Source of the DNA: a virus
Length of the DNA stretch: 34,585 nucleotides
IMG/VR virus record: IMGVR_UViG_3300021165_000457
Coordinates: 1 to 34,585 of that record
Strand: one strand, 5' to 3'
Shown: in pieces, positions 3,382-27,502 of the stretch
Numbering within the stretch: position 1 is the stretch's first letter
Layout: every line of letters begins with the position of its first letter
The notes under the pieces: generated by a model
What the model saw: the letters and a program-made list of their open reading frames with translations, nothing else
Databases searched by the model: none
What the model was told of the DNA's origin: nothing
Translations under genes and position numbers: made by a program

Positions 3382-4404
3382 TTAACCTCCGTAAAGAACT
3401 CCTTTTGTAGCTTGTCCTACATTTGCTGCTAAAGTATAGATTGAACGTACAAATTGAACATCTCCATCATTTACTAATTTACCTACTTCAAATCTGTTTA
3501 CATCATCAGTTAAATCTGTATTCCAAGAAACAGCTGCTTTTCTTTGAGCGTAAGCCATCAAGTTATTTGGAGCTGGTACAAAAAGAATTTCAACACCGTT
3601 GTAAAATACTCTTGAAGTATTGAAGTTATTTCCATCTATTTGGAAATTGATTTGTTGTGCTGCACCAACTGCGTTATTAGCATTGTAGCAAAGTTGTTTC
3701 CAAGCTCTAGGAGCATAGATAACAGTTGGACTAACAGTATCGTTTAAGTTTTCTGCTGGTATTGCTGCAAATATTTTGCCACATTCTGCAGCAATATTTG
3801 CTGATGTAACTGTAGTTCCTGTTACTTTAATATAACCACCTATTGCTGATAAATCATAAAGAACTTTTGCAAAAACACCATCAACTAAACCTGCTGTTAA
3901 AGCAGCTACTGCTGTTTGAGTTGCAGCTGTAATTGAACCTTGTGCAGCGTTTGGAGTTAATGCTGCAATAGCTGTTTTTGTAGCCGATGTAATACCACCC
4001 CAATAAATAGATTCAGCATCTTGAGAAACGTTTGGTCCAACCATAGCTAAAACAGTTGAAGCAAACTCATTACTTTCAATGTTAAAAGCACCCGGTGACA
4101 TTGAACGGTTAAAACGTGCGCTTCTTAAACTATCTTGTAAGAAAGTTTGTTTGTACTCTAATTTTGTTGGAGTAATAATACGATCTGAAATGTTCATTGA
4201 ACCACTTGAAGATAAAGCTGAACCTGTATAAAGTTGTGCTGTTACATCTACTCCTGCTTCTGTGAAAATTGTACCAGCTTTAATGTCGGTATTAAATGTT
4301 ACGTACCCATCCGCAATGGTTTTATTTGCGAATAATACTTCTTCTAAGATAGGTTCTACTGCAACCCCTCTAATGTCTACTGCTGTTGAATAACTTATTG
4401 CCAT
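3382..4404 (-). CDS. Major capsid protein (340 aa)
   Basis: Position (directly after a protease-scaffold gene), size and composition point to the major capsid protein, probably with the HK97 fold. It starts MAISYSTAVDIRGVAVEPIL and has a small-residue-rich middle with two similar Ala/Thr-rich stretches, ATKTAIAALTPNAAQGS and ATQTAVAALTAGLVDG. A later segment, VIYAPRAWKQLCYNANN, resembles the P-domain region of capsid proteins, and the C-terminus ends VGQATKGVLYGG. The low charge and high Ala/Thr/Gly content contrast with the Lys-rich neighbours. The two Ala-rich stretches could be a short internal duplication. Confidence 0.8.
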   Translation of the reverse strand: MAISYSTAVDIRGVAVEPILEEVLFANKTIADGYVTFNTDIKAGTIFTEAGVDVTAQLYTGSALSSSGSMNISDRIITPTKLEYKQTFLQDSLRSARFNRSMSPGAFNIESNEFASTVLAMVGPNVSQDAESIYWGGITSATKTAIAALTPNAAQGSITAATQTAVAALTAGLVDGVFAKVLYDLSAIGGYIKVTGTTVTSANIAAECGKIFAAIPAENLNDTVSPTVIYAPRAWKQLCYNANNAVGAAQQINFQIDGNNFNTSRVFYNGVEILFVPAPNNLMAYAQRKAAVSWNTDLTDDVNRFEVGKLVNDGDVQFVRSIYTLAANVGQATKGVLYGG

Positions 4405-4419
4405 TTTTTATTTAATTTA

Positions 4420-5523
4420 TTAGTTAATAATTGTTTGAATGTTTTTTTTAATTTCTCGGTATCTTTCTAATGCTGAAAGTTCAACATCAATTGCTTTAGG
4501 ACTTACTACTGTTTTTTGTGTCGCTGGAGTAGCTGACAATTCTGTTTTTAAAGTTTCGTTTTCTTTACTTTGCTCTGAAAGTTTAGTTTCAATAGCTGTA
4601 AATCTTACATTCAAATCCTCGTTAAATTTAATTAGCATAGAGCTAATTGCGTTTTTTAATTCGGCTACATCAGGAATAGAATTTCCTGTACTTAATTCTT
4701 CAACTGGTGCAATTACTTCTTCTTCTTCAATTGTTGAAATTTCAGAAATAACTCCAACTTCTGCAACTGAAATAGTAATGCCATCAGCAAGAGTATATTC
4801 TCCAATCGGTGCTGGTACATTTCCATCAGGTGTTACAAGTGTAATTGTGCCACCTATTTCAGGCATATCCGTTTCAGTTTCTAGTGTCAATGTTCCGTCT
4901 GCTGACTTCCATTGTGCTAATTTGATTTGTTTAGAAAATAAACTTTTAAGCTCATTTACTATTTCGTCTTTCATCGTTTTTAAATCCATATTATTCTCAT
5001 TTTTAGTTAATATTACTTTTTCGTTAAACATACCCTCTATTGAAAAGCCTGTTCCGTTTTCTTTGCAAAGTTCCCATTGCTCTTTATCTTCAATTTTCAT
5101 CGCTACAACCCAACTGCCTACAGGTGCATCTATACCATACAAAGCTGTTTTGTCTTTTTTCAAATCTTCAACTATCCAACTTTCTACTATTGTACCGCTT
5201 AAAGCTAGTTTTGAATGTTCTAAATTTGCATTACTTTGATTTCCTTTTTTTAGATATAATTCGGATGCTCTTTTTATTGTTTCTTTTGAAAAGAATACAT
5301 TAAACTCCTCTTGTGTATCTTCATCAAATCTGTAAATCTTTTTTTCAGGTATCATTGCAACCCCTAATAAGATTTGTTTTTCGTTGTCAATCTTTGCAAA
5401 TGAAACTCTTTTTTCTTCTGAAAGCATTATAAATTGACTTTCCATTGCTGGTGATCCAACTACAGAAATAGCGTCAATTCCTTGCACTTCTTCATCCGAT
5501 AAAATCAATTCGTATAGTTTCAT
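4420..5523 (-). CDS. XkdF-like prohead serine protease fused to a scaffold domain (367 aa)
   Basis: The N-terminal ~170 residues match the phage XkdF-type putative serine protease. Visible elements: IPEKKIYRFDED, NLEHSKLALSGTIVESWIVE with candidate catalytic His103, GIDAPVGSWVVAMKIED, and GTGFSIEGMF with candidate nucleophile Ser161. The remainder is acidic (EEEEVIAPVEE) and ends in a likely coiled coil at about 310-350, as expected for a scaffold. The protein would shape the prohead and cleave scaffold during maturation. An in-frame ATG at residue 179 (MDLKTMKDEIVNELKSLFSK) could make scaffold alone, as lambda does with C/Nu3, but that is only inferred. Its start codon ends the second 32-bp late element. 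Confidence 0.75.
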   Translation of the reverse strand: MKLYELILSDEEVQGIDAISVVGSPAMESQFIMLSEEKRVSFAKIDNEKQILLGVAMIPEKKIYRFDEDTQEEFNVFFSKETIKRASELYLKKGNQSNANLEHSKLALSGTIVESWIVEDLKKDKTALYGIDAPVGSWVVAMKIEDKEQWELCKENGTGFSIEGMFNEKVILTKNENNMDLKTMKDEIVNELKSLFSKQIKLAQWKSADGTLTLETETDMPEIGGTITLVTPDGNVPAPIGEYTLADGITISVAEVGVISEISTIEEEEVIAPVEELSTGNSIPDVAELKNAISSMLIKFNEDLNVRFTAIETKLSEQSKENETLKTELSATPATQKTVVSPKAIDVELSALERYREIKKNIQTIIN

Positions 5524-14611: not shown

Positions 14612-15400
14612 TTATAATCCTTTAAATGCTTTTAGTGGATAAAATACTAAACTATTTCTATAACCTCCTTCAAAGGTAGGTAAAATAGGTGTAACTCCGT
14701 GAACATTTCTCCAAGCTGGATAAACTAAAATAGAGTTATCTTGTTGTCCGATAGTTGCGTTATAGTCAGGCACGTGCAAATCACCGCCCTTTGAGTTAAA
14801 CTTTTTACAAATAATTACATTGACTGCTCCTACTATATTCCCTGTATCTCGGTGAAAAGGTGCAGAAATATTATAATTTGAAATTGAGCTTGTGAATAGG
14901 TTTGCAAATCTCCATTTTTCAGGAACATCTTTAAATAACTCAATTTGTTGTTCGTATTGTTTTGGAAGGATTTCTTTAATTAATAGTTCGCTTTCCTTTG
15001 CTAGTAATAGCATAGCTTTTATAAAAGTTTGTGCAGTTTTCACACCGTGAACAGAAGATATAGTTTCATAGTTCCTTCTCATATGTGGCTTTGGTGGAAC
15101 ACTACCTAAAATAGTTGAATATTGGTCAACTACATTTTTATATTTATAAGTTCCGTTTTCATTTTTACCATCAGGAATCTGTCTTGTCATAACAGTTTTT
15201 GGTACGTTTTTAGACCTTAATTCTAAATTTGCTAAATCAGCAAGTTTACACATTTTTTCAGGCATTTTCGTCATATAAAAACCTACTGGTTCCCCATCAG
15301 CATAAAATATACAATCTTCTGTAACGTTTGGCTCAATATACTCACAAGCTTCACCAATTTTACGGTTGTGTTCTATTTGTATTAAATCAATTCTTTTCAT
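14612..15400 (-). CDS. Fe(II)/2-oxoglutarate oxygenase, TET/JBP-like (262 aa)
   Basis: The C-terminal half has the iron-binding facial triad: HRD (His183, Asp185) in APFHRDTGN, then GGDLHVP (205-211) and distal His234 in VHGVTP. Arg248 in YRNSLVFY is the expected 2-oxoglutarate ligand. The HRDxxN start and the H-x-x-TP...R-x-SLVFY end closely recall TET dioxygenases (TET2 has HRD and HATTP...RISLVFY), which oxidise 5-methylcytosine; JBP relatives oxidise thymine. The N-terminal half is helical and less conserved. It overlaps the FkbM gene by 14 bp and precedes TerS by one base. The phage also encodes a C5 methyltransferase that could supply 5mC. A generic prolyl-hydroxylase-like role is the alternative. 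Confidence 0.65.
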   Translation of the reverse strand: MKRIDLIQIEHNRKIGEACEYIEPNVTEDCIFYADGEPVGFYMTKMPEKMCKLADLANLELRSKNVPKTVMTRQIPDGKNENGTYKYKNVVDQYSTILGSVPPKPHMRRNYETISSVHGVKTAQTFIKAMLLLAKESELLIKEILPKQYEQQIELFKDVPEKWRFANLFTSSISNYNISAPFHRDTGNIVGAVNVIICKKFNSKGGDLHVPDYNATIGQQDNSILVYPAWRNVHGVTPILPTFEGGYRNSLVFYPLKAFKGL

Positions 15401-22158: not shown

Positions 22159-22174
22159 AAATAATTAAAAAGTT

Positions 22175-22242
22175 AATGCCACTCAAACACGCTGGAAGTC
22201 GTGAAAGAGTGGCATTGATAATATTTTCTCAATAGCTTCCAG
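22175..22242 (-). ncRNA. Kissing-loop leader of the primase-helicase mRNA
   Basis: On the minus-strand RNA a 5' segment CUGGAAG (22242..22236) sits in an 8-nt loop closed by UAG/CUA. Downstream is a long hairpin: 10-bp stem AAUGCCACUC/GAGUGGCAUU (22216..22207 with 22184..22175), symmetric UUU/UUU internal loop, 4-bp stem CACG/CGUG, and 8-nt loop ACUUCCAG, which contains CUUCCAG, fully complementary to the 5' segment. The hairpin ends 16 nt before the start codon and is followed by an A/U-rich tract with UUUUU. Pairing is visible; regulation is inferred. Confidence 0.65.
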
Positions 22243-22251
22243 ACTACACGA

Positions 22252-22259
22252 CAAATATA
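22252..22259 (-). promoter_or_regulatory. -7 promoter box of the primase-helicase gene
   Basis: Minus strand TATATTTG, matching TAnnTTTG, follows an A/T-rich tract containing TTTAATTAAAA. Transcription would begin near 22247, at the very start of the structured leader. Confidence 0.6.
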
Positions 22260-22524
22260 AAAAAATATTTTAATTAAATTACATAATTATTATTATTTTT
22301 TTTATAATTACTATAATTAATAAAATAAAAAAAGTGTACTGATGCTAAACCCTATAAAATAAAGGCTTAACGGTTAAATAGTACACTTTTTCATTTTTTT
22401 TGCAACTTTTCAAAAATAAAAACAATTTTTATAAAAAAATTTATTCCTTATAATATAGTGAAGTACCTAAAAGTGTATTTGTGTACTTAAGAAAACTAAT
22501 ATTATTGACTGCTTTAGTAGTCAA
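22260..22524 (-). other. 265-bp A/T-rich noncoding region with AAGTGTAC-type repeats, possible origin
   Basis: No convincing gene is present. It holds several related words: AAAAGTGTACT (22330..22340), its inverse AGTACACTTTT (22380..22390), AAAAGTGTAT (22469..22478) and GTGTACTT (22481..22488), plus hairpins AAGTAC/GTACTT (22461..22488) and ATTGACT/AGTCAAT (22504..22525, 8-nt loop). Repeats next to a primase-helicase gene suggest an origin or operator; this is a guess from context. Confidence 0.35.
22322..22391 (-). terminator. Long-armed hairpin, possible terminator
   Basis: AAAAAGTGTACT (22329..22340) and AGTACACTTTTT (22380..22391) form a 12-bp stem around a 39-nt loop. On the minus strand it is followed by TTTTTTTATTTT, and on the plus strand by another T run, so it could terminate in either direction, second in tandem after 22525..22554. 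The large loop makes an origin element or small RNA possible. Confidence 0.45.
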
Positions 22525-22577: not shown

Positions 22578-23261
22578 TTAAAATTCTAAATCATCTCCAT
22601 CAGCATCATTACCTAAAGGTTCATCAAAAGTTTCCTCAACTGCTGGCTCTGACTTTACTAAGTAAGCTTTTAAGTAGGCTTCTAAAGTATCAAAACAACT
22701 ATCAGCTTGTTCATTCTCTGAATCTGATAAAGTACGTTCAAATGTAAAGTCAGGCATCGAGAATTTAACAGCTCCTTTTTTACCATCTTTTGCAGTTTTT
22801 ACAATTACCCATTCTTCAGGAAGTCGTGTTCTTGATTTTTGCGTAAACTCTCCCCAAGCTTGAACGCTTGAGCCCTTTAATTGTAAATTAGCAAGTGAGC
22901 CATCTTCAAGCATAATGTAAATGCTTTTAGTGTAGTGTCCTCCTGCTGCAACAATCTTCTCTTTAATGTCTTTGTACAGACCTTTTGCAATTTCATTTCC
23001 CTTGAAAGGTTTTACAGTCATAATTTCTTTACTGATAAACTTTACTTCGTTGGAATAAATTGAGCTTGATGTAGCATCATTCCAACCTTTTACGGTGTGC
23101 AGTTCATCGAGAACTAAAAACTTAAAAGGTAAAGGAATTGAAACTTTCTTTTGTGCTTCTTTATCGTAATATTCAAATGCTTTGTCATTTGATTTCCATT
23201 CGATAAACTTTGTTGCTGGGTTGGACTGTGGCGACTGAAACGCCTGCTTTCTGTTTGACAT
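22578..23261 (-). CDS. Probable single-stranded DNA-binding protein with acidic C-terminal tail (227 aa)
   Basis: The main domain has strand-like segments (SIPLPFKFLVLDELHTVKGW, YSNEVKFISKEIMTVKPFKG, HYTKSIYIMLEDGSLANLQL) with aromatics that could contact ssDNA, and a basic patch (QKSRTRLPEEWVIVKTAKDG). The C-terminus is highly acidic and ends GNDADGDDLEF, a form shared by bacterial SSB (DDDIPF) and T7 gp2.5, where the tail recruits partners. Size and early-operon position fit a phage ssDNA-binding protein. It is expressed alone: own promoter, structured leader, strong terminator. The leader has a compact pseudoknot and A/U-rich tract like T4 gene 32 autoregulation. I have no OB-fold search result. 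Confidence 0.55.
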   Translation of the reverse strand: MSNRKQAFQSPQSNPATKFIEWKSNDKAFEYYDKEAQKKVSIPLPFKFLVLDELHTVKGWNDATSSSIYSNEVKFISKEIMTVKPFKGNEIAKGLYKDIKEKIVAAGGHYTKSIYIMLEDGSLANLQLKGSSVQAWGEFTQKSRTRLPEEWVIVKTAKDGKKGAVKFSMPDFTFERTLSDSENEQADSCFDTLEAYLKAYLVKSEPAVEETFDEPLGNDADGDDLEF

Positions 23262-23277
23262 AATATTTATTTTTTAT

Positions 23278-23309
23278 GGCTTGAAATTACGATGCCCAAG
23301 CCTTGCATC
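23278..23309 (-). ncRNA. H-type pseudoknot leader of the SSB-like mRNA
   Basis: On the minus-strand RNA: GAUGC (23309..23305), AA, GGCUUG (23302..23297), G, GCAUC (23295..23291), GUAAUUU, CAAGCC (23283..23278). GAUGC pairs with GCAUC, and GGCUUG with CAAGCC, giving a compact H-type pseudoknot with loops of 2, 1 and 7 nt. It is followed by AUAAAAAAUAAAUAUU and the ATG, 16 nt away. A pseudoknot plus A/U-rich tract before an SSB-like gene matches the T4 gene 32 operator layout. Confidence 0.7.
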
Positions 23310-23324
23310 TGTTATTATGAATTG

Positions 23325-23332
23325 CAAATATA
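23325..23332 (-). promoter_or_regulatory. -7 promoter box of the SSB-like gene
   Basis: Minus strand TATATTTG matches TAnnTTTG. It overlaps the end region of the 52-aa gene and would start the pseudoknot leader. No clear TTG at -33. Confidence 0.55.
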
Positions 23333-23945: not shown

Positions 23946-23962
23946 ATTGTTATAAATTAAAA

Positions 23963-24020
23963 ACTCTCCCAATGACCGCCAAGTGCAAAGAGAGAGTAGT
24001 TATAGTTTCAATCTTGGCGG
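23963..24020 (-). ncRNA. Loop-complementary (pseudoknot) leader of the 145-aa gene
   Basis: On the minus-strand RNA the 5' segment CCGCCAAG (24020..24013), flanked by AAU/AUU, is followed by hairpin ACUCUC/GAGAGU (23997..23992 with 23968..23963). The 23-nt loop contains CUUGGCGG (23983..23976), complementary to the 5' segment over 8 bp. The hairpin ends 17 nt before the ATG and is followed by UUUUUAAUUU. Sequence differs from the other leaders, but the design is the same. Confidence 0.65.
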
Positions 24021-24030
24021 ATTTCTTTAG

Positions 24031-25164: not shown

Positions 25165-25173
25165 AATACAAAA

Positions 25174-25248
25174 AACCAACCGAAAAAAGGGACTAGACTT
25201 TTAACGATTGGTTATTTATTAAATTATTAATATCGCTAGTCCTCGATA
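25174..25248 (-). ncRNA. Kissing-loop leader of the HNH endonuclease mRNA
   Basis: On the minus-strand RNA a first hairpin UAUCG/CGAUA (25248..25231) has 8-nt loop AGGACUAG. A second hairpin has 9-bp stem AACCAAUCG/CGGUUGGUU (25213..25205 with 25182..25174, one GU), inner stem AAAAG/CUUUU and 8-nt loop UCUAGUCC. GGACUAG and CUAGUCC are 7-bp complementary, so the two loops could kiss. The second stem runs into UUUUUU, so it may also act as a terminator. It ends 9 nt before the ATG. Confidence 0.65.
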
Positions 25249-25251
25249 AAG

Positions 25252-25259
25252 CAAAGATA
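25252..25259 (-). promoter_or_regulatory. -7 promoter box of the HNH gene
   Basis: Minus strand TATCTTTG matches TAnnTTTG, directly before the kissing-loop leader. It follows the 35-aa membrane gene. Confidence 0.55.
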
Positions 25260-25270
25260 CAAATTAATTT

Positions 25271-26536: not shown

Positions 26537-27502
26537 TTATTTTATAAATGAGAAAATATGTTCTATTATTGGTAGTGTCCAACCATCGCCTAGAAGTGAT
26601 CCGGCTTTTGCAGTTGTAAGAATATCGCAGTAATCATCAGGGAAACCTTGAAGTCTGCACATTTCAACTTTATTAACTGTTCTAACTATGCCATCTTTTT
26701 TAATTAAAGTAATCATTCCAGTAGTTTCGTTTCTGTGTTGCAAATATCTTTGACTAGATTTTTCAGTAGTACCACTTCCAGTATTTAAACAAGTGTGTTT
26801 ATCAGTATCAACGTAAATCATATTTATAAAATCTTTCCGCGCTCGTTTCTTAATACTTTCCTGACTTGTACAAGCTCTGCTTTCACTTTCTAATATTGCT
26901 AATGCTTTTACTCTTTCAACTGTACCACCTGTAATAATATCCTTAAACATTATACCTTTATCTTTAGGTTGTGGAATATCTGTAACAACATCAAACATTG
27001 TTTCTTTAGTTCGTATGTTACTCCAGTAATAACGATCACGTAATTGTGCAGTTACTAAACTACTATTGATACGAACTGGATAAACTCCCAACGCTCGGCT
27101 CATAATACCTACATCTAATTTATTTGCACTACCTACATTCTCTTGTAGAAATAATACATTTGGATTAAGTGTTTTAATGTAATCTAATATTTCAACAAAA
27201 GTAAAGAACAAATTGCTTTTACTTCCATTAATTCCTGCACGTTTCCCAGCTGCACTTAAATCTTGACAAGGCGAACCTGACAAAACTAAATCAATACTTT
27301 TCCAATCAATATCCCATTCACGCCACTTTGTAACATCACCTACCTGAATAGTATCAGGGAAATGGTGTTGTGTTAATTGGATTGCATACGGTTTGATTTC
27401 GCTTGAATAATATTTATTAACTTTTATACCAACGTTTTCAAGAGCTTGCCTACCTGTATTCATTCCGTTAAATAACGATACTACATTTAAAGCCTTTTTC
27501 AT
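26537..27502 (-). CDS. C5-cytosine DNA methyltransferase (321 aa)
   Basis: Motif I VVSLFNGMNTGRQALE (7-22), motif IV with catalytic Cys79 in GSPCQDLSAAGKRAG, motif VI LQENVGS (119-125), motif VIII QLRDRYYWSN (153-162), motif IX CRLQGFPDDY and motif X GSLLGDGWTLPIIEHIF. All catalytic motifs are present. The FNGMxxGRxAL form and SPCQDLS-AG resemble the DNMT3-like phage type. It may shield phage DNA from restriction and supply 5-methylcytosine to the TET/JBP-like oxygenase at 14612..15400. The variable target-recognition region lies between VIII and IX, so the site cannot be read. No restriction partner is visible. Confidence 0.9.
   Translation of the reverse strand: MKKALNVVSLFNGMNTGRQALENVGIKVNKYYSSEIKPYAIQLTQHHFPDTIQVGDVTKWREWDIDWKSIDLVLSGSPCQDLSAAGKRAGINGSKSNLFFTFVEILDYIKTLNPNVLFLQENVGSANKLDVGIMSRALGVYPVRINSSLVTAQLRDRYYWSNIRTKETMFDVVTDIPQPKDKGIMFKDIITGGTVERVKALAILESESRACTSQESIKKRARKDFINMIYVDTDKHTCLNTGSGTTEKSSQRYLQHRNETTGMITLIKKDGIVRTVNKVEMCRLQGFPDDYCDILTTAKAGSLLGDGWTLPIIEHIFSFIK

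Follow-up and report, generated by a model that had tools for sequence, protein, structure and literature searches.

Does the 5′ leader of a gene for a probable single-stranded DNA-binding protein (SSB) in a phage of Bacteroidetes carry a translational operator like that of phage T4 gene 32? The gene 32 pseudoknot is the textbook example of how an SSB senses its own free level through its mRNA, and a sequence-only reading of the DNA analyzed here had pointed to a pseudoknot of that kind. The window, that is, the whole 34.6-kb stretch that was analyzed (positions 1 to 34,585 of the IMG/VR record IMGVR_UViG_3300021165_000457), comes from a viral collection and carries the tailed-phage genes for terminase, portal, and tape measure proteins as well as replication genes. 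The gene behind the leader (positions 22578 to 23261, minus strand) encodes a 227-aa protein of the phrog_6706 family with a predicted gp32-like (OB-type) fold. It is flanked by a 145-aa gene and a primase-helicase gene and lies immediately upstream of the primase gene both in the window and in actinophage Gaia. In cellular genome collections, relatives of this SSB-like gene were found on contigs of one Bacteroidetes assembly and one Flavobacterium assembly. The window phage also encodes both a TET/JBP-type oxygenase (Tet_JBP in Pfam) and a C5-cytosine methyltransferase (14612 to 15400 and 26537 to 27502 (−), respectively), a pair that suggests the presence of oxidized methylcytosine in its DNA.

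Anatomy of the leader

The leader of the 227-aa gene contains an H-type pseudoknot at positions 23309 to 23278 of the minus strand, where the sequence up to the start codon reads TAACA GATGC AA GGCTTGG GCATC GTAATT TCAAGCC ATAAAAAATAAATATT ATG. From its 5′ end, the structure consists of the 5′ strand of stem 1 (S1; GATGC, 23305 to 23309), loop 1 (L1; AA, 23303 to 23304), the 5′ strand of stem 2 (S2; GGCTTGG, 23296 to 23302), the 3′ strand of S1 (GCATC, 23291 to 23295), loop 3 (L3; GTAATT, 23285 to 23290), and the 3′ strand of S2 (TCAAGCC, 23278 to 23284), all on the minus strand, with the stems assigned from sequence and covariation and L3 from sequence and the comparison of leaders. The sequence-only reading had S1 (5 bp) and the 2-nt L1 right and made S2 one pair too short, at 6 bp with the other loops of 1 and 7 nt. 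The seventh S2 pair, G·U in the window, is GC, AU, GU, or CG in the relatives, with 19 double-sided changes; since S2 is 7 bp long in the relatives, the two stems abut directly, with no inter-helix base (L2 = 0) and an L3 of 6 nt.

The A/U-rich tract reported between the pseudoknot and the ATG is there as well: these 16 nt with UAAA elements (23262 to 23277, minus strand) are unstructured if folded alone. On the other side, the longer reading of the leader, TATATTTG-CAATTCATAATAACA-GATGC-AA-GGCTTGG-GCATC-GTAATT-TCAAGCC-ATAAAAAATAAATATT-ATG, takes in a promoter element of the Bacteroidetes TAnnTTTG type (TATATTTG, 23325 to 23332, minus strand), predicted from the sequence and from matches in near leaders. 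Similar elements (TTTG, TTTA, or TTAG) occupy the equivalent position in 101 of the 112 distinct near leaders, and the strict TAnnTTTG in 21 of the 112. The span originally marked, 23278 to 23332, therefore shrinks to 23278 to 23309 for the pseudoknot, the rest (23310 to 23332) being upstream leader and promoter match. A frameshifting element was excluded, as the pseudoknot is located between the stop codon of the preceding gene and the ATG.

Conservation and covariation

Nested folding of the single window leader is unremarkable (z = −1.8), as it would be if the pseudoknot were a chance pairing; comparison with related leaders refutes that explanation. The scan of viral contigs yielded 80 relatives of the gene, and nearly all of their readable leaders share the structure, 15 to 22 nt 5′ of the ATG. 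In an alignment of 48 distinct leaders, 98.6% of the cells that should pair do so (100% in S1 and 97.6% in S2), compared with 72.6% after shuffling, and double-sided changes affect 10 of the 12 pairs (5 of 5 in S1 and 5 of 7 in S2). The covariation score of these leaders, 0.708, compares with 0.181 ± 0.017 for the shuffles and with at most 0.173 when the partner is slid by 1 to 3 columns. The S1 variants include GATGC/GCATC, GCTCG/CGAGC, GCAGC/GCTGC, GTTGG/CCAAC, GGAGC/GCTCC, and AATGG/CCATT, among others. Further scans added distant relatives at 38 to 60% protein identity, whose stem sequences are mostly unrelated to those of the window but whose leaders keep the geometry and the distance to the ATG, as in GCCC aa GCGCTTC GGGC aaga GAAGCGT, TGTGG aa GCAGTTG CCACA aactc CAACTGT, and GTAGG a TGCTTACA CCTAC ataatt TGTAAGCG.

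A descriptor that combined a fixed geometry with a position constraint recognized 111 of the 112 near leaders and 31 of the 36 distant ones, as opposed to 2.0% and 3.5%, respectively, of dinucleotide-shuffled versions. A 122-row protein tree, drawn without the clade of L414, implies no fewer than 34 changes of S1 and 75 of S2, and 118 of the 122 rows have nevertheless retained the pseudoknot. The pseudoknot is certainly real and under strong selection, and the covariation, the descriptor counts, and the changes on the tree reduce the probability of chance pairing to a negligible one.

Certain positions change far less than the stems. The first base of S2 is G in all 144 structured leaders (stems read as 7 bp), L1 is AA in 108 of the 111 near leaders and has at least one A in every distant leader, and the spacer has a G+C content of 4%, with two or more UAAA elements in 70 of 111 leaders (17% for other genes). 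The L3 sequence is UAAUU-like in the near relatives. Such conserved loop letters (AA in L1, UAAUU-like in L3) could form a ligand site, in which case a factor other than the SSB-like protein (a different protein of the host or the phage, or a small ligand of the preQ1 riboswitch kind) would bind the pseudoknot and time the production of the SSB-like protein. This explanation appears improbable, though: the distant clade does not keep the L3 letters (it has AAGA and AACUU, among others), the association of the structure with one gene family (see below) points to that family's own product, and no riboswitch or any other Rfam family matched the window or 12 relatives at the gathering score, with covariance models that score pseudoknots incompletely.

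Some members of the protein family do without this structure. The L414-L425 clade (∼50% identity) has no leader, the ATG being within a few bases of the stop codon of the upstream 144-aa gene, so the regulation of its SSB-like gene must differ from that in the leader-bearing relatives. In the actinophage-like group of phrog_6706, including mycobacteriophages, none of the 13 distinct leaders, both read and scanned with the descriptor, contains the pseudoknot.

The 227-aa protein

The family to which the protein belongs, phrog_6706 (E = 4e-33), is annotated as having an unknown function, includes gp93 of mycobacteriophage Gaia and its relatives, and is distinct from phrog_224 and phrog_1764. The 227-aa protein had no match in Pfam or NCBIfam and no credible match in PDB sequence searches with the protein and its profile, Foldseek alone returned nothing from PDB with an E value below 0.001, and the hhalign profile comparison with gp32 (probability 0.2%) found no homology. 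A structure model from 33 close relatives had a pLDDT of 43; 80 diverse relatives were used instead and gave an AlphaFold model (pLDDT 88.6, pTM 0.81) that is confident save for the tail.

The best solved-structure matches of this model were the recombination directionality factor (RDF) of phage phiC31 (Z = 7.0), the T4 gp32 core (5.6), and gp32 with dT17 (5.0), followed by BRCA2-DSS1 with single-stranded DNA (ssDNA; 4.7), RB69 gp32 (4.2), and RPA70 with ssDNA (3.7). Notably, three of the first six matches are gp32 entries (PDB 1gpc and 8gme for T4 and 2a1k for RB69), a moderate fold similarity over 136 to 146 residues with Z scores of 4.2 to 5.6, middling values that are compatible with common fold arrangements. 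Many of the top matches are OB-fold proteins, the sequence-only reading having proposed structure prediction as a check for that fold. The sequence contains a single Cys residue, and the gp32-type zinc site (three Cys and one His) is therefore absent.

The acidic, Phe-ending tail that had been read from the sequence, DGDDLEF, is conserved across the relatives, and an acidic tail with an aromatic last residue is found in nearly all members of the family. An acidic C-terminal tail is a feature of T4 gp32, too, whereas the terminal Phe is that of bacterial SSBs, whose acidic C-terminal tails end in this residue. From the moderate fold match, the tail, and the neighboring primase gene, the 227-aa protein is a probable SSB. 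With the phiC31 RDF as its best fold match, it could instead be an RDF-type or other nucleic acid-binding factor that still regulates itself through the leader; this is unlikely, given that the proteins scanned from the window (part of its open reading frames) include no integrase and that both the conserved acidic tail ending in Phe and the primase neighbor are SSB features. Separately, the position of the phiC31 RDF as the top fold match of this family hints at a possible origin of some RDFs from SSB-like proteins of phages.

Association with a single gene family

A context-blind DNA pattern, in which only AAGG, two Ts, and a CCATAAA tract were fixed and both stems were left mostly open, had 68 matches in the viral collection. 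All 61 matches with both stems lie 5′ of a gene of this protein family, and none of the 7 without both stems precedes such a gene. Of the 42 matches of the descriptor that were assigned to other genes, about half precede family members missed by the filter and two precede leader-carrying endonuclease genes; the remainder are weak, mostly A/T-rich pairings at a near-chance rate. The compact pseudoknot is certainly tied to one gene family.

In the contigs L058 and L063, a GIY-YIG/NUMOD3 homing endonuclease gene (3580 to 4325 and 3985 to 4740, respectively) separates the SSB-type leader from the SSB-like gene. The endonuclease gene and the SSB-like gene each have their own pseudoknot, and the two differ; that the SSB-like gene keeps a second pseudoknot behind the endonuclease suggests that it needs one.

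Comparison with the T4 gene 32 operator

In the T4 operator, the pseudoknot nucleates gp32, which then spreads over a UUAAA/UAAA tract (PMC535899, PMC3014915), the T2 gene 32 pseudoknot has helices of 5 and 7 bp (PMC5684407), and the gene for the GIY-YIG homing endonuclease SegG is located directly upstream of gene 32 in T4 (PMC535899). The descriptor used for the Bacteroidetes phage leaders also recovers the T4 operator (TGCC a GCTATGA GGTA aagtg TCATAGC, 39 nt 5′ of the ATG) and a leader of Mosigvirus, of the RB69 group (ATACC a GCTACGA GGTAT aagtg TCGTAGC); in six other gp32 genes and a Krischvirus, it found none or only weak pairings. According to published reports, the gene 32 pseudoknot is patchy even among the relatives of T4, RB49 being without it.

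The claimed likeness to the gene 32 operator is borne out in geometry and in the UAAA-rich tract. The operators of T4, T2, and RB69 share with the leaders described here the H-type fold, an S1 of 4 to 5 bp, a 7-bp S2 opening with G, an A-containing L1, a coaxial junction without an inter-helix base, and an L3 of about 5 to 7 nt (5 nt in T4); in T4, as here, there follow an unpaired UAAA-rich tract and the ATG of an SSB (here, probable SSB) gene. The position of SegG resembles that of the GIY-YIG endonucleases in L058 and L063. On the other hand, L1 has 1 nt in T4 and usually 2 nt here (some leaders can be read as having 1), and the spacer to the ATG is 15 to 22 nt here as opposed to 39 nt in T4. 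The RNAs have no sequence homology, a clear Shine-Dalgarno sequence is absent here, and the hosts are Bacteroidetes. Gaia gp93 and its relatives share with the 227-aa protein the family and the place before a primase or polymerase gene, but their leaders are without the pseudoknot. As the profiles of gp32 and the 227-aa protein show no homology, either the two designs converged or any common origin lies too far back to be visible.

A second class of larger pseudoknots

Autogenous control had been suggested to extend to three other leaders of the window. Those of the primase (22158), 145-aa (23945), and HNH (25164) genes, at positions 22159 to 22260, 23946 to 24030, and 25165 to 25260 of the minus strand, do contain H-type pseudoknots before the ATG, but of a different, larger architecture, which does not bear out the suggestion. 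In these three leaders, S1 has 7 to 8 bp, L1 15 to 22 nt, S2 8 to 10 bp, L2 6 to 8 nt, and L3 5 to 7 nt; with the relatives included, the class ranges over 7 to 11 bp for S1, mostly 15 to 25 nt for L1, 7 to 14 bp for S2, and mostly 2 to 10 nt for L2 and L3, so its loops are much longer than those of the compact class. The sequence is highly variable and the plan constant. Such structures were found in 68 of 129 primase, 15 of 108 145-aa, and 11 of 12 HNH leaders of the relatives, compared with 4 of 645, 2 of 540, and 1 of 60 shuffles, respectively. A run of U residues often follows S2 on its 3′ side, which makes attenuation one idea for their function. As other genes are preceded by this second class, pseudoknots in 5′ leaders may serve a more general purpose in these phages.

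In L404, the leader of an HNH gene carries a pseudoknot (CCGCCAAG.../...CTTGGCGG) like those found before the 145-aa gene, suggestive of a capture of leaders by homing endonucleases from the genes that they invade.

Proposed function of the compact pseudoknot

By analogy with gp32, the leader is probably a cis-acting translational operator through which the phage SSB regulates its own synthesis. That the letters of the stems have been rewritten dozens of times while the shape was kept points to a self-control switch as the most likely function. In this proposal, protein in excess of the ssDNA of replication would recognize the shape of the pseudoknot, for which the stem letters would be free and the A in L1 and the G opening S2 would not; the bound protein would then spread cooperatively over the A/U tract to the start site and block initiation on an mRNA poor in Shine-Dalgarno sequences, in the manner of T4 gp32 at gene 32. 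Counted against the operator are, on the side of the protein, the lack of gp32 profile homology, the moderate Z scores, the phiC31 RDF as the best fold match, and the missing zinc site and, on the side of the RNA, the second pseudoknot class before other genes, the leaderless L414 clade, the pseudoknot-free actinophage homologs, and a spacer shorter than that of T4.

The pseudoknot might also act constitutively at the 5′ end, by shielding the mRNA from degradation or by keeping its start site accessible to the ribosome, with no protein feedback, a role that would suit its location close behind the predicted promoter in most leaders and the presence of the larger pseudoknots before several other genes of these phages. 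We consider this rather unlikely, the more so as the leaders of L034 and L063 have no promoter and start a few bases past the upstream stop codon, the compact class is restricted to one gene family and the captured endonucleases, and a generic stabilizer would need neither the fixed L1 and opening G nor the fixed distance to the ATG.

Implications

The open-access literature, to which the search was confined, contained nothing relevant on this RNA in phages of Bacteroidetes. It is possible, if somewhat short of an even chance, that the compact pseudoknots constitute a new RNA family of shape-recognized SSB operators of Bacteroidetes phages, either independent of the T4 design or anciently related to it, and that, together with the second class, they put much of the early-gene control in these phages under 5′ pseudoknots. 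A covarying, deeply sampled counterpart in unrelated phages of another host phylum makes a comparative system out of what had been known from a single lineage, in which well over 100 natural variants separate the parts of the RNA that matter (the shape, the A in L1, the G opening S2, and the spacer) from the rest. The apparent leader capture by homing endonucleases has a parallel in T4 segG. Shine-Dalgarno pairing is rarely used in the mRNAs of Bacteroidetes, and the operator reading, if true, would provide a regulatory logic for such mRNAs as well as a function for phrog_6706.
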